A DNA stretch of 58,160 bases. Source: Armatimonadota bacterium (GTDB taxonomy: Bacteria > Bacteroidota > Ignavibacteria > OLB7). The DNA is taken from contig JADZEY010000070.1 of NCBI GenBank assembly GCA_020850315.1, positions 1 through 58,160 on the forward strand, read 5' to 3'. A program made the translations under genes and the position numbers. The notes below the pieces were generated by a model. That model was given only the letters and a program-made list of their open reading frames with translations. It made no database searches and was not told the DNA's origin. This document shows, in pieces, positions 4,111 through 21,135 of this stretch. Numbering within the stretch: position 1 is the first letter of the stretch; each line of letters opens with the position of its first letter.

Positions 4111-4138
4111 GTAGGCCCAGGTCTTCAGCCTGCGCTAC
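4111..4138. repeat. Imperfect palindromic element (copy 1) between convergent genes
   Basis: GTAG...CTAC ends flank a CCAGG/CCTG stem around a TCTTCAG loop. The same core (AGGTCTTCAGCCTGCGC, other orientation) recurs at 14671-14686. It overlaps the last 14 bases of the DUF1015 gene on the minus strand and may serve as a transcription end for both convergent genes. Confidence 0.45.
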
Positions 4139-5420: not shown

Positions 5421-5491
5421 GGCACGTGCTGATTAGGTTGTTAGCAGAAATGGCGTGGATGGAAACCAGTGTGAAAGAAGGAGCAGCGTGA

Positions 5492-5535
5492 ACCAAAAAC
5501 GAAAATCCCCCGCATGGCATCACCAAGCGGGGGAT
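5492..5535 (-). terminator. Intrinsic terminator of the small lipoprotein gene
   Basis: Read on the minus strand, a perfect 9-bp stem (ATCCCCCGC/GCGGGGGAT, arms at 5505-5513 and 5527-5535) is followed by TTTTCGTTTTT. It lies 20 bases past the stop of the lipoprotein gene. Confidence 0.85.
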
Positions 5536-5555
5536 TGCTCCTTTGCAAGGAGTTA

Positions 5556-5753
5556 TTAGTGCTTTGCAGTGTCGGCTGGCTTTGCCGCGCTGTCGCCAGT
5601 TGCTGGTGCAGCTGGCGTGGTTGCTGCTGGTGCAGCTGGCGTGGTTGCTGCTGGTGCTGCGGTTGTGTCGGCAGCCGGTGCGTCAGCTTTTTTGCCGCAG
5701 GAGACCAATGCCAGAGCGACAAGTGCAGGAAGGAGAAGTGCTTTGAACTTCAT
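5556..5753 (-). CDS. Small Ala/Thr/Pro-rich lipoprotein
   Basis: 65 residues. The start MKFKALLLPALVALALVSCGKK is a textbook lipoprotein signal with lipobox LVSC (Cys19). The rest is almost only Ala, Thr, Pro, Asp and Lys, arranged as a tandem APAATTPA-like repeat encoded by a 24-bp DNA repeat. It resembles the tiny, very abundant alanine-rich lipoproteins found in many Gram-negative envelopes; function unknown. The open frame extends upstream, but the lipobox fixes the start at ATG 5753. It has its own promoter (-7 element TATTTTCG at 5820-5827) and a strong terminator, so it is a monocistronic and probably highly expressed unit. Confidence 0.75.
   Translation of the reverse strand: MKFKALLLPALVALALVSCGKKADAPAADTTAAPAATTPAAPAATTPAAPATGDSAAKPADTAKH
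5600..5660. repeat. 24-bp tandem repeat inside the lipoprotein gene
   Basis: The unit GCTGGTGCAGCTGGCGTGGT plus four bases occurs about two and a half times back to back. The unit is a multiple of three, so copy-number change keeps the frame and would only lengthen the linker. Confidence 0.7.
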
Positions 5754-5819
5754 GTTAGGTTGAACCGTTGATTTGTTGGTTATGGTATCTTGATGATACC
5801 TGTTTCGAAGTAACGTTTG

Positions 5820-5827
5820 CGAAAATA
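5820..5827 (-). promoter_or_regulatory. -7 promoter element of the small lipoprotein gene
   Basis: TATTTTCG on the minus strand fits the Bacteroidota TAnnTTTG type; a TTG lies about 22 bases further upstream. The 5' UTR of about 60 bases holds a GGTATC/GATACC hairpin at 5784-5800. Confidence 0.5.
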
Positions 5828-5914
5828 CGTGTTTTCGTTCCAATCCCGGCAAGGGATTTGGGAAAATGTTTTTTCCACGAAAGGAACGGTAGTTCTGAAG
5901 CGAAACCCACACAG

Positions 5915-6784
5915 ATGCCCGAAATCTCTCTACATCCACCAGCACACCCCACCACACAGCTTGCAGTTGTTGGCACCGGGCGGCTTGCCCATGCCTTGCT
6001 GCGTACTATTCAGAACCAGCGCGTTGCACTGCTATCCAGCCGAGGCGTTACCAGCAGCGCAAAAAAAATTTTGGAAACCCCACCGCTTCCGTTGGAGCAG
6101 TTAGCCGAATTTCCCATTGACACCCTTTGGCTTGCCGTTTCCGATTCGGCAATCACTCCGGTTTCTGAAGCCGTTGCTGGGCTGCGCCAGCGCTGGGATG
6201 GCATCACTGTTATTCATTCATCGGGGGTGCAATCGCTGGCGGCTCTTGGGCCGCTTACCGAGCGGGGCGCAACCGCAATGGTGCTGCATCCCAACGCTTC
6301 GCTGACCGGATTGCAAAGAATCCCGGAAGGGATCACATGGCGGATTGAGCCGGACAACGAAACCACACGCCGCGTTGCCAATCGTTTGCTGGAAGGGATT
6401 ATTCCCCGATTCGTGGCCGTTCCTGCCGATCTTCTTCCCCTCTATCATGCCGCCGCGTCCCTTGCCTCCAACCTCTCCATGACGCTCCATGCTGTTGCCA
6501 CCGAACTCTATCACTCCGCTGGCGTCCCCCCCGATGTGGCCCGCCAAACTGTCACCCGGTTCCTTCAGGAAAGTGCTGAACGGATGGAGGCTGCCCCGTT
6601 TGCCCAAGCATTAACCGGCCCAATCGCACGTGGCGATATGGAGGTTGTGCGCCGCCAGCTGCAGGGGGTGAAATCGGCGATGCCGGAGATGTTCGCGCTG
6701 TTCCAACAGCTTTGCCGTGCAACGGTTCAGCTTCGGTTCGGCCAGGTTTCGCAGGGGTGGGAAGATGCTTTGCGGGGGGAGTGA
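5915..6784 (+). CDS. Rossmann-like and DUF2520 domain protein
   Basis: 289 residues. The N-terminal half has a dinucleotide-binding start (VVGTGRLAHALL, about residues 19-30) and a SDSAI segment like F420/NADP-oxidoreductase folds. The C-terminal half is the helical DUF2520 domain (LLPLYHAAASLASN...). The family is seen across Bacteroidota and others next to various genes and is presumed to be a NAD(P)-dependent oxidoreductase of unknown substrate. ATG 5915 (MPEISLHPP) is the last start ahead of the Rossmann fold; the frame is open upstream to 5768, but that stretch contains the lipoprotein promoter. Divergent from the lipoprotein gene. Confidence 0.8.
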   Translation: MPEISLHPPAHPTTQLAVVGTGRLAHALLRTIQNQRVALLSSRGVTSSAKKILETPPLPLEQLAEFPIDTLWLAVSDSAITPVSEAVAGLRQRWDGITVIHSSGVQSLAALGPLTERGATAMVLHPNASLTGLQRIPEGITWRIEPDNETTRRVANRLLEGIIPRFVAVPADLLPLYHAAASLASNLSMTLHAVATELYHSAGVPPDVARQTVTRFLQESAERMEAAPFAQALTGPIARGDMEVVRRQLQGVKSAMPEMFALFQQLCRATVQLRFGQVSQGWEDALRGE

Positions 6785-6809
6785 GATGGTGAACCAGGGT
6801 GAGCAACGT

Positions 6810-7196
6810 TCAGCGAAGCGCGTCAAGCTCATCCAGTGCGGCTTCCAGTTCGGCAGCGGTGTGGCGGTCGTTCTGGCGAAGCGCGACGGTGATGCCGGTT
6901 CGGTAGGTTTCTTCGGCATCCTCTATCTGCTCTGCCGAAGCATACAATCCACCAAGCTGATAGTAGAGCGCCACATACTCAGGATCCCGCTGGCGAAGCT
7001 CCACTAACGTGGCAATCGCCTGCGCTGGTTGTTTTCGGCTGGCGTATTCTAATGCAACAGCGTAGCGGGCGAAACTATCGTTGGGGTCTTGCTCCAAAAA
7101 CTGGAGCATCTGGGAAAGGCGGTCGTTCACGGTGTCGTTCGCGATGTCGTTCACGATAAGGGCGTGCGGGAATTGGTGTGGGGAATTGAAAAGCAT
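6810..7196 (-). CDS. Small tetratricopeptide-repeat protein
   Basis: About 128 residues from ATG 7196. The conserved part starts at MLQFLEQDPNDSFARYAVALEY and holds two TPR-like helical pairs, ending DELDALR. Proteins of this type are short TPR scaffolds of unknown partner. The start is uncertain: ATG 7196 lies inside the 3' strand of the RNase P RNA P1 helix, and GTG codons at 7154 and 7130, or ATG 7109, also fit; none has a clear Shine-Dalgarno site. The gene follows rnpB on the same strand with no gap, so it may depend on read-through or on a promoter inside rnpB. Confidence 0.65.
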   Translation of the reverse strand: MLFNSPHQFPHALIVNDIANDTVNDRLSQMLQFLEQDPNDSFARYAVALEYASRKQPAQAIATLVELRQRDPEYVALYYQLGGLYASAEQIEDAEETYRTGITVALRQNDRHTAAELEAALDELDALR

Positions 7197-7646
7197 CCGA
7201 AGCGTGTTTGTACGCCGAATTCTGTCTGCCTTGCCACGATTGTGTGGCAAGGGAGGCAGCCATTGATCTGGGCGGATAATCGCTTATCCGCTCTAGCAGC
7301 CTACCCGGCATCGTGAACCTTCCGCGTGGGAAGATCCAGAGGCGGGCTGCCCCGTTCCGATGCCCTATTTGGCCTTGCTCCGCGTGGGGTTTGCACTGCC
7401 GTTGCGGTTGCCCGCAACGCGGTAAGCTCTTACCTCACCATTTCACCCTTACCCAATCCCTTGCGGGGGGCGGTATCTTTTCTGTTGCACTTTCCGTCGC
7501 CTTTCGGCTGGCCGAAGCCAGCGATTGAACGCCCGGCCGTTAGCCGGCACGCTGCCCTGTGGAGTTCGGACGTTCCTCTGGTTGCCACGCCCCGCTTGTT
7601 CGGCGGTGGTGGCAATACCAGCGGCTGCCCAACACACTCCGGATGC
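7193..7646 (-). ncRNA. rnpB: RNase P RNA (bacterial type A)
   Basis: The RNA subunit of ribonuclease P, which removes 5' leaders from tRNA precursors. On the minus strand it carries the universal 5' core (GAGGAACGTCCGAACTCC, complement of about 7563-7580) and the 3' core (GACAGAATTCGGCGTACAAA, complement of about 7208-7227). The ends are set by a 16-bp P1 helix: GCAUCCGGAGUGUGUU at 7646-7631 pairs with AACACGCUUCGGAUGC at 7208-7193, with a few G-U pairs. A short T-run (TTTTC) follows the helix. Length about 454. The Nif3 and zinc-ribbon genes lie upstream on the same strand. Confidence 0.93.
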
Positions 7647-7681
7647 CTGAATTATCAAGGAACAACGGTAGCACGGGATGC

Positions 7682-8416
7682 TTACTCGGCGGTGGCCACT
7701 GGTGGCGGGGCAACCAGTTCCTCCAACACCACAATCCGGTGGCAGTGCTGGCAGGTGAACAGCTGCTCGCCGCGGCGCATCTGGACTAACACCTGCGGCG
7801 GAAGTGCGCGGAAACAACCGCTGCAAGCCCCTTTGCGGACTTTCACCACCGCGTCGGCATAGGCGTTGCGGATGTGTTCGTACTTGCGCAGAAGGTCGGG
7901 AGCAATCTGCCCCAGCATCTCAGCTTTTTTCTCTTTCAGCTCGGTGATCTCATCGGCGTTGGTTTCGCGGATGGTGGCCATCACACTGCTTTTTTCCTCA
8001 TGCTCCCGCACGGCTTCGTCGCGCTGGCGGGTTAGGGTGTCGATATCTTTAATAATGGTTGCTTCCTGCGTGTCCAGCATCACCAAGAACCGCATAAGGC
8101 GTTGCTCTTCGGCATCGGCGGCTTCAATTTCGGTGGTGGTTGCGTCGTACTCACGGTTGTTCCTGACGGTTCGTAGCCGCTCGTTCAGGGTGCGCTTCCG
8201 TTCGGTTAGGGCTTGTATTTCCCCGTGCGTGTCGGTGCGGGATTTCCGCAGCTCGTGCAGCTTCCTATCCTCGGTTGCGGCAGCATTTTTCAGTGCTTCG
8301 CCCCGTTTTTTCAATGCTTCTACTTCGGTGGGAAGTTCACCGCCACGGTCATCAAGTTCATCCAACTCCAGGTCAAGGCGCTGAAGCTGATAGAGTTTTT
8401 TTAGTTCTTCATCCAC
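7682..8416 (-). CDS. Coiled-coil zinc-ribbon protein (zf-RING_7 / CT398-like)
   Basis: 244 residues. About residues 5-180 form a long Leu/Glu/Lys/Arg-rich coiled coil. The C-terminal domain has a four-Cys zinc ribbon: CSGC near 200 and CQHC near 222. The family is thought to bind nucleic acid or act as a hub (for example CT398 of Chlamydia); the role here is unknown. It starts with GTG at 8416, chosen because AGGAGG stands nine bases upstream and the protein begins MDEELKKLYQLQ; the nearby ATG at 8412 is out of frame. It follows the Nif3 gene with a 46-base gap, a recurrent pairing in bacteria. Confidence 0.85.
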   Translation of the reverse strand: MDEELKKLYQLQRLDLELDELDDRGGELPTEVEALKKRGEALKNAAATEDRKLHELRKSRTDTHGEIQALTERKRTLNERLRTVRNNREYDATTTEIEAADAEEQRLMRFLVMLDTQEATIIKDIDTLTRQRDEAVREHEEKSSVMATIRETNADEITELKEKKAEMLGQIAPDLLRKYEHIRNAYADAVVKVRKGACSGCFRALPPQVLVQMRRGEQLFTCQHCHRIVVLEELVAPPPVATAE

Positions 8417-8462
8417 GGTGTTCTATGCCTCCTGCAATGATAATGCTGTTTGCGTTCTGAAG

Positions 8463-9272
8463 TTAGCTGATGTATCGGACCGGATTGGTCGTTTCGTGAA
8501 GCGGATGGACTGAAATAGCAGCTCCAACACGTTGCACGGTTTCCCGCAGCAGCCCCGTAAGGCCATCCACCACAAAGGTTTCTGTCTCGAAATGCCCAGG
8601 GTCAATCACTGGGATTTGGTCGTTCGCGCTGTGGAATCCGTGGTAGCGAACATCGGCAGTGATGAACGCATCGGCCCCGGCGCGAACTGCGCTGTCGTAA
8701 AAACTCATCCCGCTTCCCCCCAACACCGCAACACGGTTGATGATTCGGTCTGGTTGGCTTCCCGCCGGAACGGATACCCGAACGGAAGGAACCTTGCAAA
8801 TGCCACGAACTCGTCCGGCTAATTGCTCCAGAGTGACCCCGGGTTCCAGTTCCCCGATTGCCCCCATCCCTGCATTGGGAAGAACGGGGGAGGGTTGCAG
8901 CGGGGCGATACTGGCGCAACCAAGCGATTCGGCAAACAGCACACTGGTGCCGCGGGGGTGGGCATCGAATGCGGTGTGGGCAATGAACAGCCCCACCCGT
9001 TCGGTTATCAGCCGCGCCACGCAACGCTCCACACGGGTTGCCCCGGTAACGCGCTTCAGCGATGGATAGATCAAGGGGTGGAAGGCAATAATCAGTTCGG
9101 CATTGGCACTGACGGCGCGGTCAATGGTTGCTGCGTCAAGCTCGTAGGCCACAGCAACGTTGGTAATCGGGCGATCCTCGGTAAGGACTTGCACCCCCAC
9201 GGGGTCGTCGGCCATTGCCAACGCAAGGGGGAGTTCCTGTTGAAATTCTTGAAGGAAGTGTGAGATCAGCAT
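8463..9272 (-). CDS. Nif3-family dinuclear metal centre protein
   Basis: 269 residues, the normal length of the compact NIF3/DUF34 fold without the inserted PII-like domain. Metal-site motifs are visible: HPLIYPS near 65, HTAFDAHPRG near 98, and DVRYHGFHSA with DPGHFETE in the last quarter. Family members are toroidal hexamers with two metal ions per subunit. They have been linked to GTP cyclohydrolase I type 2 activity or metal handling, but the function is not settled. Start ATG 9272. It is probably co-transcribed with the zinc-ribbon gene and perhaps with rnpB. Confidence 0.88.
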   Translation of the reverse strand: MLISHFLQEFQQELPLALAMADDPVGVQVLTEDRPITNVAVAYELDAATIDRAVSANAELIIAFHPLIYPSLKRVTGATRVERCVARLITERVGLFIAHTAFDAHPRGTSVLFAESLGCASIAPLQPSPVLPNAGMGAIGELEPGVTLEQLAGRVRGICKVPSVRVSVPAGSQPDRIINRVAVLGGSGMSFYDSAVRAGADAFITADVRYHGFHSANDQIPVIDPGHFETETFVVDGLTGLLRETVQRVGAAISVHPLHETTNPVRYIS

Positions 9273-9286
9273 CGCGAACGCAGGGG

Positions 9287-9865
9287 TCAGTCGTCGCCAA
9301 ATCGTTTGTAGAGTCCAAGCAACGAAGTTGCTTTCCGTTCTGGTTTGTTGAAGATGGACTCCATCCTAATCGTGGTTGTCCCTTCTGGCCAGAAGACCAC
9401 TGGCATGGATTCACCGCCGTAGGTTCCGTTCGAGTACTTGTAGATTTCGGGATTGAAATCCCCAGGGCGGGTGAAGTACATGAACGGCCCTTTCCCCTCG
9501 AACCGGTACAGCCCAACATCTTCGTAGGAAGCGAAGTCAAACGTGAGCTCACCACACAAAACGTTGTTGTCTTCGTACAGCCGTTTCTTCACATTGGTCA
9601 GGCCCGGGCGTTGGTCTTCGAACTCGGTTCCTTTCAGGTATCGCTCCTTCAGGTCGGTGAAATCTTTCACGCTCACATCCTCCGATTCCTCCTCCACCGA
9701 CATCAGATTAAAGAAGGTGATGATGCCGCTACCAGAGCCATCGGGATTGATGGTGAATTGGTAGGTTTTCCGTTCGGCAAGCAGACAACCGCCCAGCAGG
9801 GTCATGGTTAGCAGCATGATCCCGGGCAGAAGAAGCTGGCGGATGTTACGCTTGAATCTTGGCAT
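9287..9865 (-). CDS. Putative lipoprotein
   Basis: About 192 residues. The N-terminus MPRFKRNIRQLLL... has a hydrophobic helix ending in lipobox LLGGC (Cys near 27), so it should be lipid-anchored in the envelope. The mature part has a beta-rich look (KTYQFTINPDGSGSGIITFF...), reminiscent of lipoproteins that open with a quadratic-like TYxFxINxDGSG strand. No named family is recognised. ATG 9865 is preferred to ATG 9874 because it gives a normal n-region. It ends 14 bases before the Nif3 start and is probably in the same transcript. Confidence 0.65.
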   Translation of the reverse strand: MPRFKRNIRQLLLPGIMLLTMTLLGGCLLAERKTYQFTINPDGSGSGIITFFNLMSVEEESEDVSVKDFTDLKERYLKGTEFEDQRPGLTNVKKRLYEDNNVLCGELTFDFASYEDVGLYRFEGKGPFMYFTRPGDFNPEIYKYSNGTYGGESMPVVFWPEGTTTIRMESIFNKPERKATSLLGLYKRFGDD

Positions 9866-10033
9866 GCAGAACAATGGATACAGGCGTTGCTGTTGGTATG
9901 CCCGGCGGGGAAACTATCACCCGCCCAGCAGTGGAAAGCGGGATGCTGCGAAAGAGAAGCGGAGACCAGCAAGCGATGGATAGGCTACACTGGCCGCCGC
10001 TTTGACGGTTCCAACGGACGTTCAACATCAGTG

Positions 10034-10115
10034 CGGAGGGCGAGGGACTCGAACCCCCACAGGCTTGCGCCCGGCGGTTTTCAAGACCGCTGCAATACCA
10101 TTATGCGAGCCCTCC
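10034..10115 (-). tRNA. tRNA-Ser (anticodon UGA)
   Basis: 82 bases. Acceptor stem GGAGGGC/GCCCTCC, discriminator G; anticodon stem GCGGT/ACCGC around loop CTTGAAA gives anticodon UGA; the variable arm (CGGGC GCAA GCCTG) is of class II length; T-loop TTCGAGT. CCA is not encoded. A TATATTGG element at 10131-10138 on the minus strand may be its promoter. Confidence 0.95.
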
Positions 10116-10339
10116 GTAAAAAACCGAAGCCCAATATACAGCCACGCCCCACATCCAGCCAATAGTTCGGGAATGGCGGCTGAAGAATCTTACAAAGTGG
10201 GCGGGATAGCCAAGCAGGGTGTGGCGGAAACTGTGGCAGTTCTTTGACAATACCGTGACATTGCCGGAATGGTGATTGATGAAGTTTGCAGTGGACTGTT
10301 GATCCATAGCAATTAATCCACACTTCATCACGATCTGCC

Positions 10340-11947
10340 ATGAGTGTATCGCTACTGCAACGCGCTGTTTTTGGGGGGCTGATGGTTACTGCACTCTGCT
10401 GCACCCACACCCTTGAGCATACCTTCCGCGCCACCTACAAGGATATGAACACCATGATCCACACGGCCAACCCGGCACCTGAGTATTTGAAAGTTCATAC
10501 GAAGAACGGCGATGTCTTTGTGTTCATTTCTGGGTGGAATCTGGACTCAACCAGCAACCAGCTTCTGGGCGTTGCCAGCCGCTTTGACTTCAACCGGTTA
10601 TTTGTTGATAGTGGGCAGGTTAGAATTTCTACAGATCAGATTGCAATTATTGAAACGAACCGCCCCATTGAGTCATTAGATGCCTCGATTACGGCAACCC
10701 TAACTAGCTTAACCATTATTAATGCCGCAGTGACGATTGCTTGCATAGCCAATCCAAAGGCCTGTTTCGGGTCATGCCCTACGTTCTATTCGGGATCTGC
10801 TGCCAATGTTCATTACGCTGATGCCGAAGGTTTTTCCAGCTCGGTTGCGCCATCTCTAGAAGCTGCCGATACCGACCCATTGCAGCATCCCCCAATGGCC
10901 GCCCCCAATGGCAGGCTTCGGCTGACGATGAAAAATGAAGCCTTCGAGACTCACGTTGTGAACTCCGTTGCGTTGCTTGCCGTTCCGTGCCAGGCTGGCG
11001 AGCAGATTGTGCAGGGGGCCGATCAGCAATTCTATGCCGTAACGAACATTACCCCGCCAAGCCATGCTGCCACAGAGAATCCAGAACGGAATGCCACGTG
11101 GCTGCTTGGCCAGTTCGACGGCAACGAGCGAACCAGCACAACCGACGGAAACAATCTTCAATCGCGTGAGGTGCTGACCCTGCGGTTTCCGGCTCCGGCT
11201 CCGGCTCCGGCCCAGGGCTTCGCAGGGGCTGGGGTGGTGATCGGTTTCCGGCAATCGCTTCTCTCCACATTTCTGTTCTACACCGCGCTCTCTTGGATGG
11301 GGCATTCGGTCTCGGACGTTTTCGCCTCTATCGAATCGGCTCCATCGCTGCGCCGCGCCTTTTGCGGCACCGAAGACCTACTGGGGGGGATTGATTGCTT
11401 CGTCTGGAACAAGGCTTCTCAACGGTGGGATTCGGTGGGGAGCCTGAAGGAGTCGGGGCCGCTTGCGCGGAATCTGCTGCTGCTGCCGATTCCCACCGAT
11501 GCGGCCACTGGCGACAGCCTGCAAGTGCAACTGCGGATGACGCGCGGCCACTGGCGGCTGGATTGTGCGATGCTGGCAAGCATCGTTGGCACGCGCCCCC
11601 CCAGCCTGCTCCGTCCGGTGGAAGTGCAGCGCAACAGCAAGCCCGACACCGCCGCACCGCGCCAGCTTGGCCACGACGACCAACAGTATCTGGTAAGCCT
11701 TCCCGGCGATCAATTCTCGTTGATCTTTCCGCAGCCGCCGTCGGGTGGCAATGCTCAGTTTTTTGTGCGAAGCAAAGGGTACTATCTAGAGTGGATGCGC
11801 CCGGCCTGGAACAACCCGCCGCAGCTTGACAAGCTGATGGGAATGGTTGCGAACAACCCGACCGTTTGGCGCGATCTGGCGGTGGAGTTCAAAGGGATGG
11901 AGGCTGGGATGGAGGAAGTCTTTTGGTCATCAAAAGCAATCAAGTAA
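10340..11947 (+). CDS. Uncharacterised envelope protein with CFGSCPTFY motif
   Basis: 535 residues. The N-terminus (MSVSLLQRAVFGGLMVTALCCTH) looks like an export signal, possibly a lipoprotein with a non-standard lipobox at the Cys pair. After a short beta-rich segment (HTKNGDVFVF...LLGV, about 52-85) and a hydrophobic stretch (about 113-135) comes CFGSCPTFY (about 141-150), then AEGFSSSVAPSLE and NEAFETHVVNSVALLAVP. I believe this matches a conserved but unnamed family seen in several phyla; the match is from memory. A hexanucleotide repeat encodes PAPAPAPAQ near 284-292. First gene of a three-gene cassette (gap 13, then 5 bases) ending in an adenylate cyclase. Confidence 0.65.
   Translation: MSVSLLQRAVFGGLMVTALCCTHTLEHTFRATYKDMNTMIHTANPAPEYLKVHTKNGDVFVFISGWNLDSTSNQLLGVASRFDFNRLFVDSGQVRISTDQIAIIETNRPIESLDASITATLTSLTIINAAVTIACIANPKACFGSCPTFYSGSAANVHYADAEGFSSSVAPSLEAADTDPLQHPPMAAPNGRLRLTMKNEAFETHVVNSVALLAVPCQAGEQIVQGADQQFYAVTNITPPSHAATENPERNATWLLGQFDGNERTSTTDGNNLQSREVLTLRFPAPAPAPAQGFAGAGVVIGFRQSLLSTFLFYTALSWMGHSVSDVFASIESAPSLRRAFCGTEDLLGGIDCFVWNKASQRWDSVGSLKESGPLARNLLLLPIPTDAATGDSLQVQLRMTRGHWRLDCAMLASIVGTRPPSLLRPVEVQRNSKPDTAAPRQLGHDDQQYLVSLPGDQFSLIFPQPPSGGNAQFFVRSKGYYLEWMRPAWNNPPQLDKLMGMVANNPTVWRDLAVEFKGMEAGMEEVFWSSKAIK
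11187..11213. repeat. GGCTCC hexanucleotide tandem repeat
   Basis: About three and a half copies of GGCTCC in a row, coding alternating Pro and Ala. The unit keeps the frame, so length change would alter only the linker. Confidence 0.6.
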
Positions 11948-11960
11948 TCAAGGATATGCC

Positions 11961-12515
11961 ATGAATCGTACAACAATCATAGCACTGGTACTGATCATTG
12001 CCTCAGTGGTGGGATGCGTTGGGTATTCCCATCTTCCTAAGCCAAAGGATATTATAACCCACACAAAAGGGGCCGAAGTAGAGCTGTTTGATGCCAACGA
12101 AGACCAGCTTTTTGATGGCGAGCTTCTTGCTATTCAGAACGACACGCTCTATATCCTAAGCTTGATTGCTGATTCCAACTACATCAGTCATATCGGGCAA
12201 CAGTTGTTGGTACCCAACACGTGGATTGGTGCGATACCCAAATCGTTTGTTGGATCAATGCACCTACGGGTTGCCCGTACAGCAAATTCGCCAACTAGTG
12301 CTGGGATATGGTTCACGGGGTTACTTGCTTCCACCCTTAGCCATGGCTTCTATATCGTTGCCACACTGCCAACAACCTTGGCATGGGGGCTTCCTACAGT
12401 CATTGATGCTACCACCACAGCATTCCATGTGGAAGTCCCAGAGGCAGAGCTACATAAATTTGCCCGGTTCCCGCAAGGATTGCCACCGGGGGTGAATCTA
12501 TCAATGATTGATTGA
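11961..12515 (+). CDS. Putative lipoprotein of the cyclase cassette
   Basis: 184 residues from ATG 11961. The signal MNRTTIIALVLIIASVVGCVGY ends in lipobox VVGC (Cys19). The mature start (HTKGAEVELFD...DGELLAIQNDTLYIL) has the pattern of a small beta barrel and echoes the early segment of the preceding 535-residue protein (HTKNGDVFVF...), so the two may share a domain. A hydrophobic segment (about 110-145) could be a membrane-embedded hairpin. Ends 5 bases before the cyclase start, so translation is probably coupled. Function unknown. Confidence 0.65.
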   Translation: MNRTTIIALVLIIASVVGCVGYSHLPKPKDIITHTKGAEVELFDANEDQLFDGELLAIQNDTLYILSLIADSNYISHIGQQLLVPNTWIGAIPKSFVGSMHLRVARTANSPTSAGIWFTGLLASTLSHGFYIVATLPTTLAWGLPTVIDATTTAFHVEVPEAELHKFARFPQGLPPGVNLSMID

Positions 12516-12520
12516 CAGTA

Positions 12521-14653
12521 ATGGAACGCATCGAACCTACAATAGAGGTAGCGCAGCAATGGGTTGACGAGGCAAGAACCCCAGCGGCTCGCGCCCATGC
12601 TTTAACCCGATTGTCCACCGTGTTGGAACATCAAGGCCACTACGACGCAAGCCTTCAGGCTGCCGAAGAAGCCTATCAGGTTGCTGAAGAAATTGGTGAT
12701 AGTAATGCTATGTCCGTGGCCTTGCGATGCCGTTCGGCAATTGCGAGTGAACGCGGCCAGTATGCAATCGCGCTAGAGTGGCTTCATCAGGCGGTTGCCT
12801 TATGCCAAGGAAGTGGCAATACTCTTGGGGCCGCTATGGCCACGTCAAATATCGGCTCCGTGTACCGACATACAGCCGATTACTCCCGCGCCTTGGAGTA
12901 CATGAAGGAAGCCTTGTCCACGTTTGAAGCCTTACAAGAATCGGCTCATATAGCTCGGGTCATGGGGAATATTGGTACGGTCTATGGAGAGTTGTCGGAT
13001 CATCCGCGTGCGCTGGAGTGCTTCACCAAAGCCCTTGCTGAATATCAATCATTGGGAGACCGAAGGGGAGCTGCGATCGTTACCGGGAATATCGGTTATG
13101 AGATGTTCCAGCTATCGGACTACCCGCGTGCGTTAGAACATATGACCAAAGCCCTTGCCGAACATGAAGCATTAGGAGATAGGCCTGAAGCAGCGAATGT
13201 CATCGGCAATATCGGCGCTGTCTTTTTTGAGTTATCGGATTATCCCCGTGCCATAGAATGCTTCACCAAATCACTTGCCGAATTCGAAGCTATTGGGGAT
13301 CGTGCCAGAGCAGGGCGCATGACGGGGAACATCGGTAGCGTCTATCGTATGCTTCGGGATTACCCACACGCATTGGAGTATTACACCAAAGCCCATGATA
13401 CCTTTACGGTGCTTGGTCATGCCGGATATGCTGCGCGTGCGGTTGCAAATATCGGCGGTATCTACCATGAGCTTCAAGAATACCCCCAAGCACTGGAGTG
13501 CATGACTGTTGCTGTTGAAGCCTTCAGGAGCGTGGGTGATCGTGACGGGGTGGCCCAAGCAATGGCTAGTATGGGAAGAACCTACTTAGAGCTATTGGAT
13601 CCCCAACATGCGTTAGAGTGCTTAACCGAAGCCCGATTGGAATATGAAGCTCTTGGAAATCAAGCGGGAATTGCACGCACAACCCAGAATATGGGGGTTG
13701 TGTATTCTATCAAAGAGTTTGAACACTACAGCTTAGCCAAAACCGAAGAATTGATAAAACAATCCATTGCCCTAAACACCAAACTTGGCAGAAAAGACTT
13801 CGATACGCACCACGCACTATCACAGGTATATCAACAAGAAGGCCGTTGGGAAGAAGCACTAACGGAGTTCCAAGCATTCCATGAGCTCAAGGAAGAAATA
13901 GAAAGCGAGGAAGCAAAAAAGAAGGTATTGCAACTGGAGCAGCAACGCCAGATTGCCGAAATGGAAAAGCGCACCGCTGCCGAGCGTGCCCATGCCGAAG
14001 CCACCACTCGTGTGCTGCATAACATTCTTCCACCAACCATTGCTGCACGTGTTGTTCGTGGTGAAGAACGGATTGCTGAAGAATTCCCAGCGGTCACGGT
14101 GTTGTTCGCCGATATTGTTGAGTTTACAACCCTATCGCAGGGAATTAGCCCAGCCGAGTTGGTTAATGGATTAGATTACCTTTTCAGCCGATTTGACGAG
14201 ATTGCCGAGAAGCATGGGATGGAGAAAATCAAGACGATTGGTGATGCTTATATGGCCGTGGCGGGCCTGCCAGAAGCCCAGCAGAACCACGCCGAACGCG
14301 CAGCAAGTATGGCAGTGGAGATGCTGAAAGTAGCAAGCAGCTTCCACGGTCTCATCACTGGAAAACCGATAAGCCTACGGATTGGATTGCACAGCGGAAC
14401 AGTGGTGGCCGGAATCATCGGAAAGAAAAAATTTGCCTACGACCTTTGGGGCGACGCTGTGAACGTCGCCAGCCGCATGGAAAGCCACGGGATGCCCGGA
14501 AAAATCCATGTGAGCAAGGACTACATGCAAGCAGCTGGTGCATATGCCAACTTTGCCTACCGAGGTGTGATGAAGGTGAAAGGAAGGGGGATGATGGAAA
14601 CCTATTTTCTTGAGAAAATCCTTCCTTCTGGAGCAGCAGAACCAGTGGGGTGA
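12521..14653 (+). CDS. TPR-repeat class III adenylate cyclase
   Basis: 710 residues, no signal peptide. Residues about 15-440 are some ten TPR units of 40 residues, several nearly identical (NIG.VY.EL.DYPRALE..TKALAE..ALGD). Then comes a Glu/Lys/Arg-rich coiled coil (about 445-500) and a class III cyclase domain. The metal-binding Asp pair is in FADIVEFT (Asp531) and IGDAY (Asp575); Lys571 and the Asp of YDLWGD fit ATP rather than GTP; DAVNVASRMES holds the transition-state Asn and Arg. All catalytic residues are present, so it should make cAMP in response to protein binding at the TPRs. ATG 12521 chosen over TTG 12512. The two envelope proteins ahead of it are likely functional partners. Confidence 0.85.
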   Translation: MERIEPTIEVAQQWVDEARTPAARAHALTRLSTVLEHQGHYDASLQAAEEAYQVAEEIGDSNAMSVALRCRSAIASERGQYAIALEWLHQAVALCQGSGNTLGAAMATSNIGSVYRHTADYSRALEYMKEALSTFEALQESAHIARVMGNIGTVYGELSDHPRALECFTKALAEYQSLGDRRGAAIVTGNIGYEMFQLSDYPRALEHMTKALAEHEALGDRPEAANVIGNIGAVFFELSDYPRAIECFTKSLAEFEAIGDRARAGRMTGNIGSVYRMLRDYPHALEYYTKAHDTFTVLGHAGYAARAVANIGGIYHELQEYPQALECMTVAVEAFRSVGDRDGVAQAMASMGRTYLELLDPQHALECLTEARLEYEALGNQAGIARTTQNMGVVYSIKEFEHYSLAKTEELIKQSIALNTKLGRKDFDTHHALSQVYQQEGRWEEALTEFQAFHELKEEIESEEAKKKVLQLEQQRQIAEMEKRTAAERAHAEATTRVLHNILPPTIAARVVRGEERIAEEFPAVTVLFADIVEFTTLSQGISPAELVNGLDYLFSRFDEIAEKHGMEKIKTIGDAYMAVAGLPEAQQNHAERAASMAVEMLKVASSFHGLITGKPISLRIGLHSGTVVAGIIGKKKFAYDLWGDAVNVASRMESHGMPGKIHVSKDYMQAAGAYANFAYRGVMKVKGRGMMETYFLEKILPSGAAEPVG

Positions 14654-14666
14654 TACTCAATTTGGT

Positions 14667-14691
14667 CGGCGCAGGCTGAAGACCTGCGCCG
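14667..14691. repeat. Perfect palindromic element (copy 2) between convergent genes
   Basis: CGGCGCAGG (14667-14675) pairs with CCTGCGCCG (14683-14691) around the loop CTGAAGA. The core is the same as that of the imperfect palindrome at 4111-4138. It lies between the convergent cyclase and ABC exporter genes and may end both transcripts, though no U-run follows. Confidence 0.55.
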
Positions 14692-14705
14692 AATCGGAAT
14701 AACCC

Positions 14706-16565
14706 CTATCTCCCTTCCATCAACTCCTCGTGCAAAACATCTTCCCCCATCTGTTGTTGCAGCTGCACCAGCCGTGCAAACCGCCCGCCGGCGGCGATAA
14801 GTTCGGCGTAGGTTCCGGTCTCGATAATCTCCCCTTGTGCCATCACCGCCACCGTTGCGGCGTGGCGGATGGTGCTTAGGCGGTGGGCGATAATTACCGT
14901 GGTGCGCCCCTGCATCACCCGGCGCAAGGCTTCCTGCACGGCGTGTTCCGATTCGGCATCAAGGAAGCTGGTGGCTTCGTCCAAAATCAGGATCCCGGGG
15001 TTCTTGATGATTGCCCGCGCAATCGCAATCCGCTGGCGTTGCCCGCCAGATAACCGGACTCCGCGCTCCCCAACAATCGTCCGGTAGCCTTCCGGAAATC
15101 CGCTGATGAAGCTGTGGGCGTTGGCAAGCGTAGCGGCTTCGATGATCTCCTGCTCGGTGGCCCCTTCTTTTCCGTAGCCGATGTTCTCGGCAATCGTTCC
15201 GCCAAACAGCGTTATCTCCTGCGGGACTACGCCGATAGCTTCACGATACTGGCTAAGCGGGTAGCTGCGGGCATCCTTCCCATCCACCATCACCGCGCCG
15301 CTGTTCGGTTCGTACAGCCGCGCCAGTAGTGCTGCAACGGTAGTTTTCCCCCCGCCCGATGATCCAACAAACGCAATGCTGGAGCCAGCCGCCACCGCAA
15401 AACTGATCCCCCGAAGCACCTCGATATCGGGCCGGGTTGCGTACCGGAACCGAACGTCGTGGAACTCAACATTCCCCGCAATGCTTGGCTGTTGTGCTTG
15501 GTTGCCCTGGCCCTCCAATTCCTCAATCTTCTCATCCAGCAATAACTCCCTGGCGCGCTGGCTTGCCCCAACCGCACGTTGGACCGAGCTGTACAGGTCC
15601 GCAAAGCTCCCCATTGCCCCGCCAACAAACACCGCGTACAGAAGGAAGGTGGTTAGCGCGCCGATGGATAGCTCGCCGGTTTGCACCAGGGTCCCACCGT
15701 ACCAGATCACCCCGGTGATGCCGCCAAACAGGATAAAGATGATGAAGCTGATAAACGCCCCACGTGACCGCGCAACCTTCAGCGAGGTTCCGATAAGGTC
15801 GGTGATCTGGCCACGGTAGCGTTCGGTCTCGCGGGTTTCGGCGGTGAAGCCTTTCACAACGGCGATGCCCTGGAAGGTTTCCTCCACTGTGACGTTCAGC
15901 TGGGCGTACAGGTCTTGGATCCGCTTGCTTCCGGCGCGGATTGCCCGCCCAAACGCCACGGCGATTCCAACAATCAGCGGGATTGGAATCAGCACAAGAA
16001 GCGTCAGCCGTGGGCTGGTGTACACGATAAGTCCAAGCCCACCAATCATAATGATGGTCTGGCGGATAAGCTCGGCGGTGGTAGTGGTTAGCGTGGTGTG
16101 GATGGTGTTGATGTCAACACTGATGCGGCTGGAAAGCTCCCCCACACGGCTGGCGTTGAAGAAGTTCATCGGCATTCGGATCATCCGCGCAAACAGTTCG
16201 CGCCGAAGATCGGCAAGGGATCGCTCGGCAACGTCGCTGATGCTGTACATCCGAATAAAGCTGAAAACCGATTGTGCCACCAAAATCCCAAATGCCACGG
16301 CTGCAACCCCTTCCAGCGTCCATTCCGGATGCGCGGCTGGGCTGGTGGCCACACCAATCAGCAGCCCGCTAAGCCACGGGAAGGAAAGGTTGGTGGCCGA
16401 CGAAAGAAGCAATGCCACAATCGAAAGGAAAAACCTCCAGCGATAGGGCCTCAGGTAGCGATAGAGGAAACGTGTGCTGGCAAAAGAATCACGGAGTGAG
16501 AACCGTTTGCGGGGCTGCTGCTGGTCGTCGTCGCCACCGGTGTTTGTATGGGTTGGCTGGCTCAT
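14706..16565 (-). CDS. ABC exporter half-transporter (MsbA/multidrug type)
   Basis: 619 residues fusing a six-helix transmembrane domain (about 40-330) to an ATPase domain. Walker A GSSGGGKTT near 400, signature LSGGQRQR near 508, Walker B ILILDEAT near 525 and the switch IIAHRLST near 560 are all intact. It would act as a homodimer in the inner membrane, exporting lipid or drug-like substrates; MsbA-like lipid A flipping is possible but not provable. ATG 16565 (MSQPTHTN) preferred to the upstream ATG 16601. A 48-base gap separates it from the subtilase gene upstream on the same strand. Confidence 0.88.
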   Translation of the reverse strand: MSQPTHTNTGGDDDQQQPRKRFSLRDSFASTRFLYRYLRPYRWRFFLSIVALLLSSATNLSFPWLSGLLIGVATSPAAHPEWTLEGVAAVAFGILVAQSVFSFIRMYSISDVAERSLADLRRELFARMIRMPMNFFNASRVGELSSRISVDINTIHTTLTTTTAELIRQTIIMIGGLGLIVYTSPRLTLLVLIPIPLIVGIAVAFGRAIRAGSKRIQDLYAQLNVTVEETFQGIAVVKGFTAETRETERYRGQITDLIGTSLKVARSRGAFISFIIFILFGGITGVIWYGGTLVQTGELSIGALTTFLLYAVFVGGAMGSFADLYSSVQRAVGASQRARELLLDEKIEELEGQGNQAQQPSIAGNVEFHDVRFRYATRPDIEVLRGISFAVAAGSSIAFVGSSGGGKTTVAALLARLYEPNSGAVMVDGKDARSYPLSQYREAIGVVPQEITLFGGTIAENIGYGKEGATEQEIIEAATLANAHSFISGFPEGYRTIVGERGVRLSGGQRQRIAIARAIIKNPGILILDEATSFLDAESEHAVQEALRRVMQGRTTVIIAHRLSTIRHAATVAVMAQGEIIETGTYAELIAAGGRFARLVQLQQQMGEDVLHEELMEGR

Positions 16566-16613
16566 GGATGCTTTGAATTGCTGAAGCGATTGCAATCGCA
16601 AGGTTTCGGAGAG

Positions 16614-18656
16614 CTACCGCGTGTAGATCAACGGCTCCGAAGATGACTTGCCGCCAGCAATCAGGAAGTAATGATATGCACCAACCGGAAGCCCCGCCGG
16701 GTTAAAAATTGCGGTGTGCCACCCGGCCGGAAGATCAGCATCAATCAACGTTGCCACCTGCTGGCCCAGTGCGTTAAAGACCCGCAACGCCACCCGCCCG
16801 TCGCTTTCGGTAGAAAAACTGATGGTGGTTGATTCCCGCAACGGGTTTGGGGCGGCGGCGGTGATAAGCACTGCGCTGGGGGTAATCGCTTCGCACAAAA
16901 AACTCTGGGGATCACTTTCCCCAGAGCGCACCCGCAGGGCCACCCTCCGCAGTTCTTCCCCGCCAATCGTAAACCGTAGCAGGATGGAGTCGCCTTGCTG
17001 GGCGTTGGCCAGCGCAACTGGATCCAGCGTCCATTGTGCAACCCCTGAGTACGGGGTGGTGGATGACGTACTCCATTGTTGGCCGGTGGCAACGTTTGTG
17101 GCTTCCAGAGTGATTGTTTCGGCAGCGGCTACTTTCCCCGCTGTGCGTGGCCTGCTAACCCAAGCGATCACCGTCAGCCGATCGCCAGAAACCGATGCTT
17201 TCGGGAATCCCACAAACGCTGTTGTCTGGCTTAGCTTCAGCAGCGCGCGCCCAACGTTGATAAGCCCGTAGCCGTAGGCCGTATCTGGCGTGGTTGCGTG
17301 GTCGGCAGTGGCCGTAAGCAGTTGGCGAACTTCCCAGGGTTTCAGATCGGGGCGGGCCGAAAGGATCAGCGCGGCCGCAGCGGTTGCCAGCGGCGAAGCA
17401 AGCGAGGTCCCTTGCGAGGACGTAATCCGCGCTGTGTCGGAAGCCTCGGCCCCGAACACTTTCACCCCCATTGCTGCAACGTCGGGCTTCAATCCACGCC
17501 CGCGCAGGCCACGGCTGCTGAAGTTTGCAATCCGCCCTGCGGAATCCACGGCGGCAACCGCAACTGCCGAATCGGCTTCGGCAGGAACGCCAACGTATCG
17601 CCAACCGTTTGCGCCGTCGTTCCCGGCGGCGTTGATGCACAGCACCCCAAGCGTTGCTGCTTTGTTGATCCCGCGCGATGCAAGCGCGGTGTGCCCGTCA
17701 AGTTCGGCGTAGGTGTGGCTCTGCTCTGATGCGTCGAACGTGGTGTAGCCAAGCGAGGCGTTGGTGATATCCACCCCTTGCGATTCCAGCCACTCCAACC
17801 CCGCCACGTAGTGATCTTCCTCAATGTTCCGTTCGCGGCGGATGTCTTCGGTTCGGGCAAGCAGGAATGTTGCGCGTGGTGCGCCGCCGATAAACTTCCC
17901 CGGCAAATATCCAGCAATCGTGCTGGTCACAATCGTCCCGTGAGCCTCGGAGTTGGTTTCGCCCGGCAGGTCGTAGGTGGTGGAGTCGCCGTACACAAAA
18001 TCATACTCACCGATGACGTTCGCCCCCCGCAGCGCAAGGTGGTTGCGCCAATCGAATCCGGCATCCATCACGCCAATCAACACCCCCTCGCCAGCGATTC
18101 CCATCCGGTGGGCGTTGTCGAATCCCATCACCAAATTTTGGGTTGTTGCCAACCCGTACTGGTCGGGGATGCAGTTGTCGGTTTCTGTGTGTGGTTCGTC
18201 GCCGTGGGCTGGTGCTGTGGTTTTGCCAAACGGGTTTGCGGCGGGCGTTACCGTGCGTGCGGTTCGGATGGAGTCAAGAAACGGAAGCCCCAGCAACGTT
18301 ATGTGAGTTGCCGAATCGGTGCGAACCATCACGGTGTTCAGCCAGCGGCTTTTCTGGGCGATTTCTGCGCCAGTTGCGGCAATTGCATCAAGGTAGGGCT
18401 GGTAGATCGGCAGGTCGTCGGTGCTGACAAGGCGATCCGGCGGCAGCACCTTTGCGCGGCGTTGCAATGCACGTGGCGTAAGGTGGCGGGCTGCTTCTGG
18501 GTACAGCAAATCGTTAGGGGAAAGGTAGCGGAACGGTGTCCCTTTGTCTTTCAGGTACAGCCGATAATACCGGAGTGAGTCTTGCGCGTGGCTGGGAATT
18601 GCTTGCGTAGCAATCAGCAGTGAAAGGGCAATTGCAGTGAAGAATTGAGGACGCAT
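16614..18656 (-). CDS. Secreted S8 subtilase with T9SS-type C-terminal sorting domain
   Basis: 680 residues. Signal peptide at 1-24 (cleavage near SHAQ). The subtilisin-like catalytic domain covers about 165-465 with Asp in GVMDAGFD (near 195), His in EAHGT (near 237) and Ser in SQGTSLASP (near 415); the oxyanion Asn is in NAAGNDG. A beta domain follows. The last 75 residues (PNPLRESTTISF ... GQQVATLIDADLPAGWHTAIFN ... GAYHYFLIAGG) are a typical type A sorting domain of the type IX secretion system, so the protease should be exported across the outer membrane and surface-attached or released. The -7 element CATATTTG lies about 60 bases upstream of ATG 18656. Confidence 0.9.
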   Translation of the reverse strand: MRPQFFTAIALSLLIATQAIPSHAQDSLRYYRLYLKDKGTPFRYLSPNDLLYPEAARHLTPRALQRRAKVLPPDRLVSTDDLPIYQPYLDAIAATGAEIAQKSRWLNTVMVRTDSATHITLLGLPFLDSIRTARTVTPAANPFGKTTAPAHGDEPHTETDNCIPDQYGLATTQNLVMGFDNAHRMGIAGEGVLIGVMDAGFDWRNHLALRGANVIGEYDFVYGDSTTYDLPGETNSEAHGTIVTSTIAGYLPGKFIGGAPRATFLLARTEDIRRERNIEEDHYVAGLEWLESQGVDITNASLGYTTFDASEQSHTYAELDGHTALASRGINKAATLGVLCINAAGNDGANGWRYVGVPAEADSAVAVAAVDSAGRIANFSSRGLRGRGLKPDVAAMGVKVFGAEASDTARITSSQGTSLASPLATAAAALILSARPDLKPWEVRQLLTATADHATTPDTAYGYGLINVGRALLKLSQTTAFVGFPKASVSGDRLTVIAWVSRPRTAGKVAAAETITLEATNVATGQQWSTSSTTPYSGVAQWTLDPVALANAQQGDSILLRFTIGGEELRRVALRVRSGESDPQSFLCEAITPSAVLITAAAPNPLRESTTISFSTESDGRVALRVFNALGQQVATLIDADLPAGWHTAIFNPAGLPVGAYHYFLIAGGKSSSEPLIYTR

Positions 18657-18714
18657 CGGATACCAGGTTTTTGCTGAAAACCAACTACTGGGATAGTGTT
18701 ACAGTAAAGGTCGC

Positions 18715-18722
18715 CAAATATG
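18715..18722 (-). promoter_or_regulatory. -7 promoter element of the subtilase gene
   Basis: CATATTTG on the minus strand, one base off the TATATTTG seen elsewhere in the window, about 60 bases before the subtilase start. Confidence 0.4.
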
Positions 18723-18813
18723 ACGAACGAAACCACCTACACAAGGCATTTGCACGGCCACAATACCATGTAACAAATTGGCCCTTTTACTGCGGCTTTC
18801 ACCAGTGGCTAAG

Positions 18814-18821
18814 TATATTTG
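18814..18821 (+). promoter_or_regulatory. -7 promoter element of the E1 dehydrogenase gene
   Basis: TATATTTG exactly fits the Bacteroidota TAnnTTTG consensus; the start ATG is 57 bases downstream. It forms a divergent promoter pair with the subtilase element at 18715-18722. Confidence 0.6.
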
Positions 18822-18877
18822 GCTTCCGTAAAGTTATCGCATAACCAGCCTGAACATCTCTCAATCGGAATAGCCCT

Positions 18878-21013
18878 ATGAACGCAAGCCGGACAAAGGC
18901 AAAAGGGAAAGGGGGGAGCAAAACCCCTGCTGTGGCCGCAGCTTCAGCCCCGGCCAACACCACACAAACCGTTGCCAGCACGGCCAACGGAACCAGCGCA
19001 TTGAGCGCTGCGCCCCGCCCCGATAACGCAACGCTTCTTGCGTGGTATCGCTTGATGCACTTTGGCCGCATCCTTGACGAAAAAGCTGCCAACTACCTGA
19101 AACAAGCAAAAGGCTGGAGCTACCACGCACCATGCGCCGGGCACGAAGGAATCCAGCTTGCGCTTGGTTATTCGTTCCGCCAGGGCCACGATTTCCTTTT
19201 CCCCTACTACCGCGACCTGATGACCAGCCTTGCTGCCGGCATCAGCCCGTATGAGATTATCCTGAACGGGTTATCCAAAGATGGCGACGTTGCCGGCGGT
19301 GGGCGGCATATGTCGAACCACTTCGCCAAACCATCCATCAACATCCAGAACGTTTCAAGCTGCACCGGCAACCACGCGCCACAAGCGGTGGGGCTGGCCA
19401 AAGCCGTGAAATACTACAAGTCCGATGCCATCGTGTATTATTCCGGCGGCGAATCGGCCTGCGCCGAAGGGTATTTCTACGAGGCAGTCAACGGCGCGAC
19501 GCATGGCAAATTTCCGGTGGTGTTTGTTATCCAGAACAACCGCTACGGCATCTCGGTTCCGCTGCACGAGGCAATGGCCAACCAGGTGGTCAGCGACAAC
19601 TTCAAGGGCTTCCCGAACATGAAGATCATTGAGGTTGATGGAACCGATGTGATTGATTCGTGGCGTGGTATGCAGGAAGCAATCCAGTACGTGCAATCGG
19701 GCGCGGGGGCGGCAATGATCCATGCCGATTGCGCCCGCATCGGATCCCACTCCAACAGCGACCGCCACGAACTCTACCGCTCGCCCGAAGAATTAGCCGA
19801 AGCCAAACTGCGCGACCCAGTGAAAAAACTGCGCGAGTTGATTATCGCCGAAGGCATCGCCACCGACGATGAATTGAAGGCGATGGAGAAGCAGAACAAA
19901 ACGCAGATGCTGGAGGCCGCCGACCAAGCCGAGGCAACCCCCGATCCATCGCCGGAATCGTACAAAGATTTCTTTATTGCCCCGCCATACAACGCCACCG
20001 AGAACCGCGCCGCTGCCGGCGAAGAGATGACCTTGCTGCAAGCGTTGAACGAAACGATGAAGCAGGAATTCCGCCACAACCCCGACACGTTTATTTGGGG
20101 CCAGGATGTGGCCAACAAGGAGAAAGGGGGAATCTTCAATGTGACGAAAGGGATGCAGCAGGAGTTCGGCTACGACCGCGTGCACAACGCCCCGATTGCC
20201 GAGGATTACATCGTCGGCTCGGCAAACGGATTCAGCCGTTTCAACAGCAAGATTCGGGTGCTGGTGGAAGGTGCCGAGTTCGCCGATTATTTCTGGCCAG
20301 CAATGGAGCAAACGGTGGAGATGGGGCATGAGTATTGGCGCACACGCGGCCAGTTCTCGCCGAACGTCACCATCCGCATTGCTTCCGGCGGCTACATCAC
20401 CGGCGGGCTGTACCACTCGCAGACAATCGAGGCCACGCTGCAATCGCTTCCCGGAATGCGCGTGGTCTATCCAGCCTTTGCCGACGATGCCGCTGGGCTG
20501 CTTCGCACCTGTCTCCGTTCGCAAGGGATGAACATCTTCCTTGAACCGAAATATCTGTACAACCACGCTTGGGCAAAGACCCTTGTCCCGAACGGTTTTG
20601 AGGTTCCGTTCGGCGTTGCGCGCACCCGCCGCGAAGGGAATCACTTGGCGATTATCACCTACGGCAACGCCGTGCACCTATCGCTGCAAGCCGCCCAGAA
20701 ATTGGCCGCCGAGGGGATCGAGACCGAGGTGTTGGATCTTCGGACCATCCGCCCGATGGACGTTGGGGCAATCGTTGCGGCGGTGCGGAAAACGGGGCGT
20801 GCGTTGGTCGCGCACGAGGATCAGATCACTGGCGGCGTGGCCGGGGAGATCATCGCCACCATCATGGCCGAATGCTTCAGCCATTTGGATGCGCCGGTGA
20901 TGCGTGTTGGCAGCAAGGATACGCCCGTTGGATTCTCGCCAGTGTTAGAAAAAGCAATCCTGCTGAACGCTGACGATATCTACCAAAAAGCAAAACAGGT
21001 GGTCGCGTTTTAA
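18878..21013 (+). CDS. Fused 2-oxo acid dehydrogenase E1 (alpha and beta subunits in one chain)
   Basis: 711 residues. The N-terminal half (about 45-360) is an E1-alpha-type thiamine diphosphate domain (GNHAPQAVGLAKA..., then G-E-S at about 190 and NN near 218). The C-terminal half (from about 380) is E1-beta (MTLLQALNETM..., GADFADYFWPA-like segment, LDLRTIRPMD). The fusion is like the branched-chain 2-oxo acid dehydrogenase E1 of Bacteroidota and would decarboxylate a 2-oxo acid and pass the acyl group to a lipoyl E2. E2 and E3 are not in the window. The TPP/Mg motif GDG appears as G-E-S, a conservative but unusual change. The first 40 residues are low-complexity Ala/Lys/Thr. Confidence 0.85.
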   Translation: MNASRTKAKGKGGSKTPAVAAASAPANTTQTVASTANGTSALSAAPRPDNATLLAWYRLMHFGRILDEKAANYLKQAKGWSYHAPCAGHEGIQLALGYSFRQGHDFLFPYYRDLMTSLAAGISPYEIILNGLSKDGDVAGGGRHMSNHFAKPSINIQNVSSCTGNHAPQAVGLAKAVKYYKSDAIVYYSGGESACAEGYFYEAVNGATHGKFPVVFVIQNNRYGISVPLHEAMANQVVSDNFKGFPNMKIIEVDGTDVIDSWRGMQEAIQYVQSGAGAAMIHADCARIGSHSNSDRHELYRSPEELAEAKLRDPVKKLRELIIAEGIATDDELKAMEKQNKTQMLEAADQAEATPDPSPESYKDFFIAPPYNATENRAAAGEEMTLLQALNETMKQEFRHNPDTFIWGQDVANKEKGGIFNVTKGMQQEFGYDRVHNAPIAEDYIVGSANGFSRFNSKIRVLVEGAEFADYFWPAMEQTVEMGHEYWRTRGQFSPNVTIRIASGGYITGGLYHSQTIEATLQSLPGMRVVYPAFADDAAGLLRTCLRSQGMNIFLEPKYLYNHAWAKTLVPNGFEVPFGVARTRREGNHLAIITYGNAVHLSLQAAQKLAAEGIETEVLDLRTIRPMDVGAIVAAVRKTGRALVAHEDQITGGVAGEIIATIMAECFSHLDAPVMRVGSKDTPVGFSPVLEKAILLNADDIYQKAKQVVAF

Positions 21014-21046
21014 CAGAACGGATGGCTAATTGATTGAGCATAACCA

Positions 21047-21090
21047 AGAGACCTGATTGCCAACCGAACAATCAGGTCTCTGCTGTTTTT
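21047..21090 (+). terminator. Intrinsic terminator after the E1 gene
   Basis: A perfect 13-bp stem (AGAGACCTGATTG at 21047-21059, CAATCAGGTCTCT at 21069-21081), 9-base loop, then GCTGTTTTT. Separates the E1 gene from the efflux operon. Confidence 0.92.
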
Positions 21091-21135
21091 ATCGTTTCCG
21101 CAACTCTCAAAAAAACCTCCCGTAGGGGCCGACCT

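Follow-up and report, generated by a model that had tools for sequence, protein, structure and literature searches.

The window, that is, the whole stretch of 58,160 nucleotides analysed here, is contig JADZEY010000070.1 of assembly GCA_020850315.1, from a genome named Armatimonadota bacterium and placed by GTDB in the Ignavibacteria. Between a tRNA-Ser gene and an ABC transporter gene it carries a compact group of three genes, two for predicted envelope proteins, called ENV1 and LIPO2, and one for a TPR-adenylate cyclase. The features of the locus are the following:

4114-4136: a second copy, within the window, of the REP-like palindrome listed at 14668..14690
10033-10115, strand opposite to the three genes ENV1, LIPO2 and cyclase: tRNA-Ser gene
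10201..14711: block of about 4.5 kb absent from a congener, between the tRNA-Ser gene and the ABC transporter gene, with exactly three genes inside
10340..11947, + strand: ENV1, an ORF of 535 aa
11961..12515, + strand: LIPO2, an ORF of 184 aa
12521..14653, + strand: TPR-adenylate cyclase gene, 710 aa counted from ATG, matching PF00211 at 6e-59 and TPR_12 at 9e-52
14668..14690, + strand: REP-like palindrome GGCGCAGG-CTGAAGA-CCTGCGCC, directly after the cyclase gene
14706-16601, convergent: ABC transporter gene, downstream of the cyclase gene

The three genes all lie on the + strand and are packed as tightly as described at the outset, with 13 bp separating ENV1 from LIPO2 and 5 bp separating LIPO2 from the cyclase gene. 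Searches of ENV1 and LIPO2 in Pfam, NCBIfam and PADLOC gave no reliable match, and a sequence search of the PDB with profiles of both proteins returned nothing significant.

The expectation that the first two genes would also be neighbours in other genomes is strongly borne out. In 98 of 103 non-redundant ENV1 loci, LIPO2 follows immediately on the same strand, usually with overlapping frames, the quoted overlaps being upper limits since the reading frames were begun at the first possible start codon. Among 197 related genomes, ENV1 is found in 42 and LIPO2 in 18, and the LIPO2 matches mostly adjoin ENV1. A scan of GTDB genome contigs yielded 257 ENV1 relatives, 80 of which were taken for analysis. 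The pair spans at least five phyla (Bacteroidota, Ignavibacteriota, Calditrichota, Zixibacteria and Edwardsbacteria), and its hosts comprise Saprospiraceae, Chitinophagaceae, Flavobacteriaceae, Hymenobacter, Dyadobacter, Ignavibacteria, Caldithrix, Zixibacteria and Edwardsbacteria. The remotest ENV1 homologues, with 23-27% identity, keep a LIPO2-like partner in six of eight cases. ENV1 and LIPO2 apparently constitute a real two-gene module, undescribed as far as Pfam, NCBIfam and the PDB show.

Apart from LIPO2, no family of neighbours keeps a constant position in the 103 ENV1 loci. An outer-membrane barrel encoded upstream was considered as a third partner and rejected, a related gene occupying that position in only 4 of the 103 loci. 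A protein of about 225 aa is encoded ahead of ENV1 in a few Ignavibacteria loci (L080 4590-5279, L068 8129-8803 and L070 7693-8367); the L080 gene encodes an outer-membrane beta-barrel (PF13568).

The CFGSCPTFY motif noticed in ENV1 is nearly invariant across its relatives. The N-terminal cysteine and residues C135, C142 and C146 are conserved in all 74 aligned relatives, and a hydrophobic segment centred near residue 130 precedes the motif in 73 of the 74 rows. The defining features of the module, namely the N-terminal cysteine, the hydrophobic helix, C135/C142/C146 and a NEAxETH motif, are all found in the window's ENV1. Judging from the invariant N-terminal cysteine, ENV1 is probably a lipoprotein like LIPO2, its own lipobox (TALCC) being irregular. 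The AlphaFold2 model of ENV1 (mean pLDDT 87.6) contains beta-sandwich domains. Its predicted layout begins with a signal helix (5-20), a small beta unit (50-106) and a hydrophobic helix (114-137), and the C-terminal part comprises a jelly-roll-like beta-sandwich (about 219-417), a YYLEWMR motif and a helix (507-530).

In VIA structure alignments of residues 219-416, this sandwich resembles the jelly-roll domains of beta-galactosidase/glucuronidase, the Eph ligand-binding domain and PAPP-A, with Z scores of 8.6-10.5. The alignments mostly extend over 118-143 residues at 3.2-4 A, the top one (Z 10.5) having an rmsd of 3.2 A over 118 residues. ENV1 nevertheless differs from these domains in that identity is 5-16%, a helical hairpin interrupts its sandwich, and it has no sequence relative in the PDB. 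The jelly-roll likeness of the model is a common arrangement and no proof of function. Foldseek with full-length ENV1 gave mostly poor whole-chain matches, many with an rmsd near 35 A, and the VIA alignments are more informative.

LIPO2 is a predicted lipoprotein with an SVVGC lipobox and a FARFPQGLP tail. Its AlphaFold2 model (mean pLDDT 85.2) shows five strands (39-105) and a long hydrophobic helix (111-152). Residues 34-108 resemble Sm/LSm/SH3-like small barrels, including many Hfq chains at a Z of about 5, with a best Foldseek E of 0.04. DUF150_C, the C-terminal SH3 domain of RimP, is matched by 5 of 61 LIPO2 members, at best with 2.5e-05. Unlike Hfq and RimP, the LIPO2 barrel is part of a lipoprotein that is predicted to be secreted and has a long hydrophobic helix. 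Because the score is weak, the likeness is taken as a resemblance of fold only. The earlier note had also suggested, from a similar beta pattern, that ENV1 and LIPO2 share an N-terminal domain. Both are predicted to carry a small all-beta unit preceding a hydrophobic helix. Profile comparison lends the suggestion no support, hhalign of the ENV1 N-terminus with LIPO2 yielding a probability of at most 3%; ENV1 residues 50-106 are barely covered by the structure matches.

The third gene encodes a cyclase with N-terminal TPRs, a helical linker and a class III catalytic domain, in this order; the catalytic domain (520-698) scores 199.1 bits with PF00211 against a cut-off of 21.9. As had been supposed, the protein is soluble, with no hydrophobic segment, and keeps all catalytic residues (D531, D575, K571, D641, N648 and R652), which make up the two metal Asp, the Lys/Asp adenine pair and the Asn/Arg transition-state pair. 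The TPR array, put at roughly ten units before, consists of about eleven, of some 40 residues each. As an enzyme, the cyclase is, by its sequence, nothing unusual, a new member of the class III adenylate cyclases with TPR. The genome also encodes three cNMP-binding proteins that could read cAMP.

No characterised cyclase with the same domain order was found in the open-licence papers searched. LA_4008 of Leptospira interrogans and its myxobacterial relatives also join a soluble class III cyclase to TPR repeats (PMC3789758). In LA_4008, two N-terminal cyclase domains are combined with an AAA ATPase and with TPRs at the C-terminus (PMC3789758), whereas the window cyclase has N-terminal TPRs, one cyclase domain and no AAA domain. 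The PADLOC model of the Pycsar cyclases (PycC) matches its catalytic domain at 5e-17; unlike in Pycsar, the Lys/Asp specificity pair points to ATP. A Pycsar defence system was considered and dismissed, the neighbours ENV1 and LIPO2 matching no PADLOC model.

The cyclase is not alone in its genome, which has 14 PF00211 matches, some of them pieces of broken genes at contig ends. The full and broken paralogues are 46-54% identical to the window copy, which is diverged and not a recent duplicate. Of the genomes searched, those of its own genus hold its best relatives, and sequence comparison assigns it to a genus-level paralogue family. The neighbours of the paralogues are mostly unrelated genes. 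Six contigs (L085, L086, L088, L089, L090 and L233) break off within TPR-cyclase genes, suggesting that the paralogues share near-identical stretches and perhaps undergo gene conversion. Each of the two species of the genus has a vWA-domain lipoprotein gene followed by a TPR-cyclase gene (L084 13446-19239 and L230 3380-7105); in L084, two TPR-cyclases stand in tandem after the vWA lipoprotein gene. This neighbourhood is better conserved than that of lipoprotein and cyclase in the window. Another TPR-cyclase of the congener (L224 13180-15264) is located near the counterpart of window position ~4138, where the window has a glycoside hydrolase gene.

The three genes had been proposed to form an envelope cassette in which the cyclase would report the state of the other two proteins. 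One half of this proposal, the adjacency of ENV1 and LIPO2, is conserved; the adjacency of the cyclase is not, and a conserved system finds no support. Within the flanks examined, a directly adjoining TPR-cyclase is found in none of the other 102 ENV1 loci, contrary to the idea that the cyclase would accompany the pair elsewhere. Locus L100 has two TPR-cyclases several kb from the pair, L132 has a ferredoxin-like cyclase near it, and L068 has a short cyclase encoded on the other strand. Outside the window, a cyclase immediately next to the pair was found once only, namely a 7TMR-DISM receptor cyclase in an uncultured Bacteroidales genome (L136 1631-3583), whose gene lies 130 bp upstream of ENV1 and on its strand. 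Of the 18 pair-bearing genomes, three (G060, G116 and G099) have no PF00211 match and hence no detected class III cyclase, and the congener (G001) has 15 such matches and no ENV1. Since the cyclase is a local neighbour and belongs to a set of about a dozen related copies in this genome, the evidence does not establish a conserved three-part sensing system.

The history of the locus can be read from the congener, in which the sequences corresponding to window positions 4138-10200 and 14712-21374 align at 85.7% and 86.5%, respectively, with about 17 bp between the flanks. As the flanks are nearly contiguous there, one species has 10201-14711 and the other lacks it. A genome of another genus (G002) likewise has the two flanking genes near each other, about tRNA-Ser, an arrangement that favours insertion in the window's lineage. 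The edges of the block are blurred, with a shared GTGGCGGAAAC stretch near the left edge, and neither an integrase nor a target-site duplication was seen at the block. The REP-like palindrome has seven copies in the genome with at most two mismatches, compared with none for the reversed control, and both window copies sit at the two synteny breaks with the congener. The copy at 14668-14690 is possibly a terminator or a repeat at the insertion edge; a scan for promoters and terminators found no excess over shuffles (promoters 5 against 3.8, sd 2.1). The window's ENV1 groups in a clade rich in Bacteroidota, separately from about three quarters of its own class, and ENV1 is absent from four genomes of the same family, which together fits horizontal gain. 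The simplest reading is that the pair was gained horizontally; the cyclase may have arrived together with it or later.

The likely explanation of the locus is a conserved two-lipoprotein module with a TPR-cyclase as its resident downstream neighbour in this lineage. ENV1 and LIPO2 would be co-produced from genes that overlap or touch, then exported and lipidated at their N-terminal cysteines. Most likely, they would form one membrane-attached complex, which is proposed because each has a small beta unit near its lipid anchor and a hydrophobic helix able to pair in the membrane. The anatomy of ENV1 also suggests its jelly-roll domain as the candidate ligand-binding part of this complex. The TPR-cyclase would be cytosolic and, in this genome, probably transcribed together with the pair, which is plausible since the three genes lie in one block absent from the congener. 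A protein attached to its TPR array would control its production of cAMP; this partner need not be ENV1 or LIPO2, and the cyclase would have no obligate functional link to the pair. Two observations run counter to this explanation. The shared block and the 5-bp gap before the cyclase gene would also fit joint arrival as a functional unit, and in both species of the genus another TPR-cyclase gene stands after that of a vWA lipoprotein, which leaves room for a local envelope-cyclase link. The pair and the cyclase may be directly linked, the evidence for this being their adjacency in one genome.

Such a link could join the envelope pair to the cyclase as a single sensory unit, with the TPR array relaying the state of ENV1 and LIPO2 and thereby setting cAMP. 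The tight co-directional packing, the common block in this lineage, the complete set of catalytic residues with three cNMP-binding proteins in the genome, and the vWA lipoprotein adjacency conserved in the genus are all consistent with it. It is nonetheless very unlikely, given that the arrangement does not recur in the 102 other loci, that three genomes carry the pair without a detected class III cyclase, and that most cyclase paralogues adjoin unrelated genes. Furthermore, contact with a cytosolic TPR array would be impossible if ENV1 and LIPO2 were wholly extracytoplasmic. A topology in which ENV1 is lipid-anchored outside, spans the inner membrane with its helix and docks on the TPR array from the cytosol with its C-terminal domain, which bears the three invariant cysteines, seems extremely improbable; if true, a lipoprotein pair would be wired directly to an adenylate cyclase in this lineage. 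Conversely, the cyclase gene might be a wandering paralogue with its own promoter and unrelated to the pair, having landed downstream by recombination between repeats. The dispersal of the paralogues, their varied neighbours and the several contigs that end inside them, pointing to near-identical stretches, would agree with such a history, as would a REP-like palindrome at the block edge and another at the second synteny break. Set against these are the gap of only 5 bp, the promoter scan that does not exceed its shuffles and the divergence of the window copy, which make this origin rather unlikely.

The conserved two-lipoprotein module, with the cyclase as a neighbour in this lineage, is the preferred reading. 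The case of the cyclase demonstrates that genes tightly packed in one genome can look like a system for which comparison offers no support. The ENV1-LIPO2 pair, kept across at least five phyla and lacking a Pfam or NCBIfam model or a solved relative, is a good target for study, which may reveal an envelope function basic to the Bacteroidota and related bacteria.
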